Origin: Neoalteromonas arenosi
Lineage (GTDB): Bacteria > Pseudomonadota > Gammaproteobacteria > Enterobacterales > Alteromonadaceae
Reading direction: 5' to 3'
Length of the DNA: 64,000 nucleotides
Assembly: GCF_030362855.1 (NCBI RefSeq)
Contig: NZ_JAUCBP010000002.1
Coordinates: forward strand, 62,001 to 126,000
Each line of letters begins with the position of its first letter. Position 1 is the first letter of the stretch. A program made the translations under genes and the position numbers. Below are positions 3,081-6,223 of the stretch, piece after piece. Under the pieces are notes generated by a model. It worked only from the letters and a program-made list of their open reading frames with translations. It was not told the origin of the DNA and made no database searches.

Positions 3081-4529
3081 CTACTGAAAGGCGTTCCGTT
3101 TTAATAAGTCCTCGAAGTCAGTGCGACTGAAGAGGCCTAATGATTCAGCAGATTGGGCTAACGAGAGGTGTTTTTTCTGTGCCTCCTTTACAATAGAGGC
3201 TGCCATGTCATAGCCCAGCTCTGGTGTAAGTAAGGTAATAATGGATAAGTTGTTGGTCATATTCTGCTCAATCTGTGCTTTGTTGAGAGTTAATCCATAT
3301 AGGCAATTTTCCGCAAACGATTGTATTGCATCGGATAATAATTCTATGCTCTCCATAATGTTGTGAATAATGACGGGTCGTGAGGTGTTCAACTGTAATT
3401 GGCCAGCAGAGGCCGCTAGAGAAACGGTGAGATCGTTACCAAACACCTGCATGCAAACCATACTTAAAGCCTCGCATTGGGTAGGATTTACTTTGCCGGG
3501 CATAATTGAGCTACCGGGTTCATTGGCAGGCAATATCCACTCATTCAAGCCACATCGAGGGCCACTACCCAAAAGCCGAAAATCATTCGCCATTTTCAGC
3601 AATACCGAAGCCAGTAGTTTCAGTGACGCACTAAATTTTAACAATGCTGATTCTCCAGACACGGCAGTGTATAGATTTTCATGCTGTTCAAATGGCAACT
3701 CAAAGCGCTTTGCCAAACCTGCAATAACCTGGCGGCCAAAATTGGGGGGAGAATTAGCCCCCGAGCCAACGGCCGTGCCCCCGAGTGCCAACTTGAAAAC
3801 TTGTTGTAAACTAGCCTGGAGGTCCAACTTAGCATGATTTAGTTCGCTCAAATATACCGACAAAATTGCCCCTGCTGGCAATGGAATAGCGTCCATTAAA
3901 TGGGTGCGCCCTACGCATGAAACACCTTTAAACTCCGATTGTTTTTCCTGTAAGTATTGACAAAGTTTGTTTAACGAAGGCAATAATTTTCGTGTCGATT
4001 GCTGTGCCACAACTACGTGCATAGCGCTAGGAAATACATCATTTGAGGATTGCGACATATTGACGTGATCGTTGGGGTGAATCTTGTCTTTTGTAAGCAA
4101 TTCAAAGGTTTTAACTTGATCACGCAGATAAGCATTCGCAAGCGAGGCTATAACCTCGTTCACATTCATATTGGTTTGTGTGCCAGAACCAGTTTGCCAA
4201 ATCCGCAATGGAAACTGATCTTCATAGTGTCCTTTAATGATTAATTTACAGGCATATAAAATTGCGTGATGTTGTGTCTTATTCAACAGGCCTTCTGCAT
4301 AGTTGACATCTGCACATAAAAGCTTAATTGCTACCAGAGCATGAATAAAATCATGGTCAAAACACTGCTTACCAATGTTAAAGTGCAGTAATGAGCTTTG
4401 CGTTTGTTTCCCCCACCATACACCTTGACTCACCTTTTCCGTGCACTCCGATTGAGCTTTGTTGGCTTGTATAAACGTAGAGACAGGTTTAAACGACATA
4501 CTGTGATGCCACATAAACGTGTCTTGCAT
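3081..4529 (-). CDS. fumC: Class II fumarate hydratase
   Basis: The enzyme interconverts fumarate and malate in the TCA cycle as a cytoplasmic, iron-independent tetramer. The 482-residue product carries the superfamily blocks in order: GSGTQTNMNVNEV, SSNDVFPSAMH, GRTHLMDAIPLPAG with the catalytic His at about residue 207, and GSSIMPGKVNPTQCE with the mobile-loop catalytic Ser at about 338. It is slightly longer than the usual 460-470 residues. The N-terminus has three possible Met starts (4529, 4514, 4499) and no clear ribosome site for any, so the first 10 residues are uncertain. The N-terminal third is more diverged than usual, which could mean a relaxed paralogue, but the catalytic residues are all present. 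Aspartase is less likely because the GRTHLMDA block is of fumarase type. Confidence 0.88.
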   Translation of the reverse strand: MQDTFMWHHSMSFKPVSTFIQANKAQSECTEKVSQGVWWGKQTQSSLLHFNIGKQCFDHDFIHALVAIKLLCADVNYAEGLLNKTQHHAILYACKLIIKGHYEDQFPLRIWQTGSGTQTNMNVNEVIASLANAYLRDQVKTFELLTKDKIHPNDHVNMSQSSNDVFPSAMHVVVAQQSTRKLLPSLNKLCQYLQEKQSEFKGVSCVGRTHLMDAIPLPAGAILSVYLSELNHAKLDLQASLQQVFKLALGGTAVGSGANSPPNFGRQVIAGLAKRFELPFEQHENLYTAVSGESALLKFSASLKLLASVLLKMANDFRLLGSGPRCGLNEWILPANEPGSSIMPGKVNPTQCEALSMVCMQVFGNDLTVSLAASAGQLQLNTSRPVIIHNIMESIELLSDAIQSFAENCLYGLTLNKAQIEQNMTNNLSIITLLTPELGYDMAASIVKEAQKKHLSLAQSAESLGLFSRTDFEDLLKRNAFQ

Positions 4530-5803: not shown

Positions 5804-5827
5804 CAAAAAAACCGACTTTCGTCGGTT
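5804..5827 (-). terminator. Intrinsic terminator of the tRNA-Leu transcript
   Basis: Read on the minus strand, AACCGAC-GAAA-GTCGGTT forms a tight stem with a GNRA-type tetraloop followed by a run of seven T. It lies just beyond the last tandem repeat. The simplest reading is that one transcript covers the tRNA and all three repeats and stops here. Confidence 0.85.
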
Positions 5828-5838
5828 GGTGTGCATAG

Positions 5839-6057
5839 TGGTACCAGAGGCCGGGCTTGATGGGACTGACTTTTCAGCCGGTACACGATTTTTCTAATCG
5901 TTATTAGATGATGGTACCAGAGGCCGGGCTTGATGGGACTGACCTTTCAGCCGGTACACGATTTCTCGAATCGTTATTAGATGATGGTACCAGAGGCCGG
6001 GCTTGATGGGACTGACCTTTCAGCCGGTACACGATTTTTCGAATCGTCATTAGATGA
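5839..6057 (-). repeat. Three 73-nt tandem repeats carrying the 3' end of tRNA-Leu
   Basis: Copies begin at 5839, 5912 and 5985, and the tRNA 3' end itself begins at 6058. The period is therefore exactly 73 bases throughout, and copies differ at only a few positions. On the transcribed minus strand each unit ends with the 22 nt TCAAGC...GGTACCA of the tRNA (one mismatch), including the CCA. Each unit also holds a perfect hairpin ACGATT-N5-AATCGT whose loop varies between copies, and a small hairpin CTGA-AAGG-TCAG (loop AAAG in the outermost copy). GTACC and GGTAC at its two ends could close a larger tRNA-like fold. Because 73 is not a multiple of three, a reading frame cannot persist, so the array is more likely RNA than protein coding. 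The arrangement resembles the repeats behind E. coli tyrT. Confidence 0.9.
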
Positions 6058-6144
6058 TGGTACCAGAGGCCGGACTTGAACCGGCACACCCTCACGGGCG
6101 GCGGATTTTGAATCCGCTGCGTCTACCAATTCCGCCACTCTGGC
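6058..6144 (-). tRNA. tRNA-Leu (anticodon CAA)
   Basis: The 87-nt gene folds as a class II tRNA. The acceptor stem is GCCAGAG against CTCTGGT, with a G1-U72 pair as in some E. coli leucine tRNAs. The anticodon stem is GCGGA/TCCGC with loop TTCAAAA, so the anticodon is CAA and it reads UUG. A long variable arm (CGCCCGTGAGGGTGT region) and T-arm CCGG-TTCAAGT-CCGG follow, and CCA is encoded. The A73 discriminator fits leucine. It is transcribed leftward into the tandem repeats. Confidence 0.97.
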
Positions 6145-6195: not shown

Positions 6196-6223
6196 ATTAT
6201 AGCGAGCTAAAAAATCCACGCAA
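6196..6223 (-). promoter_or_regulatory. Sigma70-type promoter of tRNA-Leu
   Basis: On the minus strand there is TTGCGT, a 16-base spacer, and a consensus TATAAT (plus-strand 6196-6201). It is followed by a GC-rich discriminator GCGCAACC, the type found at stringently controlled stable-RNA promoters. The tRNA begins about 50 bases downstream. Strong tRNA expression and growth-rate control are inferred. Confidence 0.85.

Follow-up and report, generated by a model that had tools for sequence, protein, structure and literature searches.

What is the tandem array that lies immediately behind the tRNA-Leu(CAA) gene of this genome, and what maintains it? The window (the whole stretch of 64,000 nucleotides that was analysed) belongs to a 3.74-Mb genome assembled into 15 contigs, which is referred to as G000 hereafter. 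The array (5839-6057, minus strand) consists of three direct copies with spacings of 73 and 73 nt, and no gap exists between the tRNA and unit 1 (Table 1). Tandem Repeats Finder returned a single row for the 64-kb window, and this row was the array (5839-6079, period 73, 3.3 copies, 96% matches, score 447). An earlier sequence-only reading had described units that each end in the last 22 nt of the tRNA, bracketed by a strong promoter and a terminator. The three 73-nt units, located between the CCA of the tRNA and its terminator, are confirmed; their identity to the tRNA, however, is exact only over the last 16 nt and amounts to 21 of the last 22 nt in every unit. As for the bracket, the terminator was found by the scan, in which one site is about the level of shuffled sequences (mean 0.8, sd 0.9). 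Better support for it comes from a relative, G002, where the same hairpin lies directly 3′ of the tRNA CCA. The putative promoter was recognized by eye, and the promoter scan of the locus did not have TTGCGT/TATAAT among its sites.

Table 1. Features of the tRNA-Leu(CAA) locus in the window, and displaced halves of the tRNA in relatives
Feature	Position	Strand	Basis
tRNA-Leu, anticodon CAA, CCA encoded	6058..6144	-	ARAGORN; Rfam RF00005, 56.4 bits
Repeat unit 1, 73 nt, abuts the tRNA CCA, itself ends in CCA	5985..6057	-	
Repeat unit 2, 73 nt	5912..5984	-	
Repeat unit 3, 73 nt	5839..5911	-	
Exact 16-nt tail copy (CCGGCCTCTGGTACCA, the tRNA 3′ end), unit 1	5985..6000	-	
Exact 16-nt tail copies, units 2 and 3	5912-5927; 5839-5854	-	
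Hairpin CTGA-AAGG-TCAG in place of the T-loop, unit 1	6012..6023	-	Sequence; compensating changes in relatives
The same hairpin, unit 2	5939-5950	-	
Hairpin in place of the T-loop, unit 3 (loop AAAG)	5866-5877	-	
Hairpin ACGATT-N5-AATCGT, unit 1	6031..6047	-	
Hairpin ACGATT-N5-AATCGT, units 2 and 3	5958-5974; 5885-5901	-	
Intrinsic terminator 3′ of the array	5810..5827	-	Scan; conserved hairpin in G002
Promoter-like TTGCGT, 16 nt, TATAAT, 5′ of the tRNA	6196..6223	-	By eye
Displaced tRNA-Leu 3′ halves	G002:C22:63677-63731; 83964-84046		
Displaced tRNA-Leu 3′ half	G130:C18 ~4086-4138		

Read from 5′ to 3′, a unit starts with a 10-nt spacer, followed by the hairpin ACGATT-N5-AATCGT, the last letters of which open the stretch GTGTACCGG. 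Then follow CTGA-AAGG-TCAG, TCCCATCAAGC and CCGGCCTCTGGTACCA, while the counterpart in the tRNA reads GTGTGCCGG TTCAAGT CCGGCCTCTGGTACCA. A Leu unit comprises a spacer, a broken copy of the T-arm, and the 3′ acceptor strand with CCA, reproduced without change; a hairpin and a short additional stretch stand where the tRNA has its 7-nt T-loop. The array contains no CCAGAG, which would be complementary to the acceptor strand, and the units thus have no 5′ acceptor strand. Part of the tail can pair within the unit on folding, and the fold energies are mildly better than those of shuffled sequences (z from -1.4 to -1.6). The three units differ at 4 columns alone (unit positions 10, 17, 20, and 41). 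The ACGATT hairpin, which the sequence-only reading stressed as kept, is invariant among them, but this provides no evidence of constraint because the copies differ at so few columns; moreover, it is missing from the related array of G003 (L002).

The layout is that of a repeat class named tRNA-linked repeats (TLRs), of which 22 copies occur at ten loci of E. coli K-12 and which share 18-19 bp with the 3′ end of the upstream RNA (PMC8144298). These repeats have been known in E. coli since 1978 (Egan and Landy 1978; Rudd 1999, as cited in PMC8144298). In the portions of that source on TLRs, for which Bosl and Kersten 1991/1994 and Lalaouna 2015 are among the works cited, their function is given as not known apart from the 5S-linked ones, and a claim of a role in recovery from amino-acid starvation as retracted. 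The 5S-linked RrA, RrB, and RrF are described there as transcribed, processed, and bound by Hfq and CsrA (PMC8144298), and two relatives of RtT in Actinobacillus as giving Northern signals (PMC4986893, in the part that treats them). In the K-12 sequence, 178-nt units with tRNA-Tyr tail ends were found at tyrTV, units ending in their own local tRNA tails at proK and argQZYV, and one repeat between the two terminators of the rrnB 5S gene; proL and argX-hisR-leuT-proM have no tail copy. The parallel with E. coli tyrT that had been drawn from the window holds: these are the same kind of repeat, with local tail ends and a place between tRNA and terminator. We put the probability at about three in four that the window array consists of TLRs of the tyrT/rtT kind, in a short variant that is transcribed with the tRNA and trimmed off.

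The Rfam family of RtT RNA (RF00391) was matched at K-12 tyrTV, at a tyr locus of Klebsiella, and at proK in one further E. coli record and one of Klebsiella. Under its 45-bit cut-off remained the argQZYV units (31.0 and 29.2 bits) and the long-module units of the genus described below (Lys and both Ser, 31.6-39.9 bits). The window array did not match this family at the gathering score (45 bits) or at E up to 10, and all of Rfam at the same two settings returned the tRNA and chance families alone. The array is thus a short, divergent variant of TLRs.

We also surveyed the tRNA loci of four genomes of the genus (G000-G003) for copies of the last 14 nt of each tRNA in the 800 nt downstream, with at most 2 mismatches allowed and other tRNA ends left out. 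Among 196 tRNAs, one (L334, at a contig end) has no tail and was void, and 26 of the 195 usable ones were followed by tail copies, at 17 loci. The locus count is the safer figure because clustered identical neighbours see the same copies. When 11 of the 14 tail letters were shuffled in 50 rounds, the tRNAs with copies numbered 1.24 on average and never more than 2, one of which was always the void row, leaving about 0.2 expected. The loci are Leu, Thr, Val, and Ser(TGA) in G000; Ser(GGA), Arg(ACG), Leu, Arg(CCG), and Gly in G001; Arg(ACG), Gly, and Phe in G002; and Arg(ACG), Leu, Gly, Lys, and Val in G003, whose Gly array has five units of 97-98 nt. In the window's genome, such repeats also follow tRNA genes for Val, Thr, and Ser as well as a 5S gene. 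Several of the arrays examined end with partial copies, and in several the tail, trailer, and terminator are duplicated jointly.

Within G000, tRNA-Thr(TGT) is followed by three copies, one of which is broken by N (L066), tRNA-Val(TAC) by two (L075), and tRNA-Ser(TGA) by a repeat of the long-module type (L255). The idea that a paired T-stem is retained in all units was also examined at 20 loci and is not supported generally: an exact 5-bp T-stem complement occurs at 4 loci against 2.33 expected, and one of at least 4 bp at 13 against 10.09. In this test, 4 or 5 bp are kept at all three Leu loci of the genus.

Relatives of the Leu unit clarify which part of it is kept. In G003, tRNA-Leu(CAA) is followed by two units that carry CTCG-AGAG-CGAG at the place of the T-loop and lack the ACGATT hairpin, and in G018 a single unit with CTCG-AGGG-CGAG is located past the terminator. 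Model R1, built from four Leu-type units, was searched over 246 genomes of the family and exceeded 60 bits at six places only (three in the window's genome, two in G003, and one in G018). Weaker matches were read and taken for units in G164, G141, G242, G001, G249, G002, and G130, and many others were the tRNA itself. Of 47 distinct tRNA-Leu(CAA) loci, sampled by their similarity to the window, eight have tail copies within 900 nt downstream. At six of the eight, the first copy lies past the first run of six T, so that its transcription would need read-through.

For covariation, 23 matches (20 distinct) were aligned, 13 rows from five genera having letters in the hairpin. In these 13 Leu-type rows, 98.1% of the cells of the T-loop hairpin are paired, and three of its four pairs show changes on both sides; the variants CTGA/TCAG, CTCG/CGAG, and CCGA/TCGG are legible in the letters. 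Over the whole structure, two-sided changes are seen in 16 cells (5.2 in shuffles), and the covariation score is 0.178 against 0.081, neither value being reached by any of 500 shuffles. Pairing falls from 93.2% of the cells to 67.8% or 47.7% when the partners are slid by one column, although the pairing count leans towards the structure because the alignment was fitted to a model already holding the hairpin. For two of the five measures, the values are no higher than in the shuffles: the number of pairs with two-sided changes (4 against 2.9, reached by 130 of 500) and that of further pair types (5 against 7.0). The hairpin with compensating changes between species is the one at the T-loop; the ACGATT hairpin, to which attention had been drawn, is not conserved. 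Gly and Leu units of different genera have the hairpin core CCGAGTGTCGGCC in common. By eye, a short hairpin type, CCGR-NNN-YCGG, with variants, is common to the Leu, Gly, Arg(ACG), and Phe units; the Thr units, with an intact T-loop, fall outside this scheme.

The core (the 36 nt before the tail) and the spacer were then compared between genomes for Gly, Arg(ACG), Leu, and Val, using one unit per genome, each 61-124 nt long; the Ser, Arg(CCG), Lys, Phe, and Thr units did not enter this comparison, and Leu was represented by G000 and G003, without G001. In all 8 between-genome pairs the core is more alike than the spacer (identity 0.59-0.92 against 0.48-0.67, with about 0.5 for shuffled sequences), the Gly pair of G001 and G003 being nearly tied (0.69 against 0.67). 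Gene conversion could, however, hold the similarity of the tRNA-like part of the core.

A comparison of copy number among relatives was feasible at the syntenic site, marked by an RDD gene, in G001 also by lptG, and in G002 by RDD alone at a distance of about 1.1 kb. This site has three 73-nt units before the terminator in the window's genome and a single 106-nt unit, including a terminator and with a different core, in G001. In G002 there is none beside the intact tRNA, and one unit of the G001 type is displaced by 36 kb. The displaced copy extends from the anticodon loop of tRNA-Leu to a T-arm that bears a TLR-type insert; the trailer, the terminator, and a partial second unit come next. Another copy, about 16 kb downstream of the intact gene in G002, has an intact T-loop, while the copy in G130 carries the same TLR-type insert in a stretch that has no tRNA gene. 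The probable island copies begin at tRNA positions of about 26-33, not at the T-loop. We consider that the displaced halves are probably island ends, and the 36-kb copy of G002 and that of G130 may be hybrids, formed when halves displaced by islands recombined secondarily with a TLR nearby. Upstream of both G002 copies and the G130 copy, a similar stretch is seen, GCAAAGAATTT(G/A)CAAAG.

Collections of plasmids and phages, in distant mode, gave 42 and 36 matching records, respectively; among the best 20 of each, the matches lay within positions 89-204 of the query, in which the tRNA occupies about 107-193. The pattern ATCAANNCCGGCCTCTGGTACCA had 0 matches in viral contigs, and a lax pattern with 2 mismatches matched 363 of 395 genomes but was uninformative, its reversed control also matching widely. 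A scan of the genome collection gave at least 116 stretches; among the 80 listed, one is a real array (L174, which is the G003 array), seven are tRNA-Phe spanning itself, and 72 have no tRNA nearby. The proK module of E. coli was seen in 9 phage records (Salmonella or Escherichia). In an E. coli record (CP061233.1; L092), the last, partial proK repeat (1686-1767) is cut off by naRNA4 of Rfam, a REP-like sequence.

How the array may have arisen and what it does can be considered on this basis. If the tRNA is transcribed, the array would be transcribed within its precursor, judging from the promoter seen by eye and from the terminator, found by the scan and conserved. The 3′ maturation of the tRNA would cut the units off as hairpin RNAs of 73 nt or a multiple thereof, and such a release of small RNAs is plausible. 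Having neither an acceptor stem nor a T-loop, the released units would be poor tRNA mimics. The copies would multiply and vanish by tandem duplication, since the units have the tRNA tail and trailer in common, with the core hairpin and the tail being kept. That the released RNA has a small-RNA job, binding a protein or another RNA (RrA, RrB, and RrF of E. coli bind Hfq and CsrA), we rate slightly short of an even chance; otherwise it would be a tolerated by-product.

The most serious competitor is a neutral one, in which slippage or unequal recombination between the T-arm and the trailer produces the copies, no selection acts, and gene conversion with the tRNA keeps them similar. It agrees with the weak folding z-scores, the variation in unit number, core, and placement between species at the syntenic site, the occurrence of copies both before and after terminators, and the partial copies at the ends of several arrays. 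The compensated changes in the T-loop hairpin, however, and the core CCGAGTGTCGGCC common to Gly and Leu units of different genera weigh against it, as does the excess of core over spacer identity in 8 of 8 pairs, although conversion could account for the tRNA-like part of the latter; we regard this explanation as rather unlikely. The sequence-only reading had also offered relics of tandem integration, in which the units are tRNA 3′ ends displaced by elements integrated there. Tail copies at tRNA 3′ ends are indeed what integration leaves, and this tRNA has probable islands behind it in G002, with 3′-half copies about 16 and 36 kb downstream, the latter and the G130 copy spanning the anticodon loop to a T-arm that bears the TLR-type insert. 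A 73-nt unit, on the other hand, is too small to hold an element, 5S genes of E. coli and of the window's genome are followed by the same arrangement, and the joint duplication of tail, trailer, and terminator in several arrays is that of tandem duplication. Together with the start points of the probable island copies and the conserved core, this leaves plain relics an improbable source of the array.

A decoy for RNase P, the CCA enzyme, or LeuRS was suggested by the fact that every unit ends in the 3′ acceptor strand with CCA. Without the 5′ acceptor strand, with the T-loop replaced and with part of the tail able to pair inside the unit, this role appears very improbable. An assembly artefact might be suspected in a genome of 15 contigs whose Thr array is broken by N. 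This suspicion can hardly be sustained, as each copy has its own substitutions and comparable arrays exist in relatives.

A second form of TLR occurs in the same genus. The Ser, Arg(CCG), and Lys units contain a long module alignable with the rrnB repeat of E. coli; in five sequences including rrnB, its four hairpins have 99.1% of their cells paired and changes on both sides in 8 of 23 pairs. By sequence, this RrB-like module (GACAAA...GAACGT...GGCCCG...CAGGA...GTAA) is absent from the window Leu units. A model of the long module (R2) has two matches in G000, one of which, among those listed, is at the Ser locus (C7).

Several further observations concern this module. On C7 of G000, a degenerate RrB-like repeat was seen by eye 3′ of a 5S gene, between two terminators (L342, ~100-360), with a 5S tail copy at its end; at the other 5S locus found in this genome (L343), no such repeat is present in the 420 nt read. 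Searched over 247 genomes of the order, model R2 matched in 97. Of 30 such loci (L344-L373), 13 lie less than 700 nt downstream of a tRNA, with a tail copy at 12 of these, and one has a 5S motif. The 16 remaining loci were inspected by eye: L346 and L350 have 5S-like tail ends, the end of L363 resembles a tmRNA tail, and several resemble free-standing dispersed repeats. In the alignment of the long module (A3), GGA stands in two hairpin loops of all five sequences, as in CsrA sites, of which GGA is the motif. An Rfam match to rsmX at L262 lies far below the cut-off, in a list mostly of chance matches.

A wider and more speculative picture, which we judge doubtful in its entirety, would make TLRs a widespread non-coding family moving among tRNA, 5S, and perhaps tmRNA genes, settling by homology at the near-universal T-arm or RNA 3′ end and copying the local tail. 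The core RNA would be released with each round of stable-RNA synthesis, its amount reporting the growth rate; the GGA hairpins of the long module would titrate CsrA, and the window Leu array would represent a branch with a short core and a different partner.

Titles and abstract openings of the open-access literature gave no TLRs in Alteromonas and no T-loop insert. What is new here is the presence of many divergent TLRs in one genus, with a compensated core hairpin and spacers that drift faster. These provide a comparative handle, by which what is kept in TLRs, and why, becomes testable.

Among the known systems, 3′ETS-leuZ (as cited in PMC8144298) is likewise cut from a tRNA transcript, one whose end is a leucine tRNA; it is not described as a repeat with a tail copy in the passages of that source concerning it. 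It belongs to another leucine tRNA than that of the window. With RtT RNA (RF00391), the window array has the layout in common, whereas the covariance model is not matched by its units. RrA, RrB, and RrF occupy the same kind of locus, and the genus has the rrnB module too, in its Ser, Arg(CCG), and Lys TLRs and, in degenerate form, in the 5S TLR of G000; the window Leu units differ from them in having neither this module nor a GGA in the T-loop hairpin. The differences from the E. coli TLRs in general are a unit of 73 nt against 178 (tyrT), an exact tail of 16 nt against 18-19 bp, a short T-loop hairpin against the long module, another genus, and another tRNA. Nevertheless, the window array stands, like the E. 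coli TLRs, directly behind a stable RNA gene and within its operon, between CCA and terminator; its three copies fall within the one to five per locus of that class, and each ends, in this looser form, in a tail identical to the 3′ end of the local upstream RNA.
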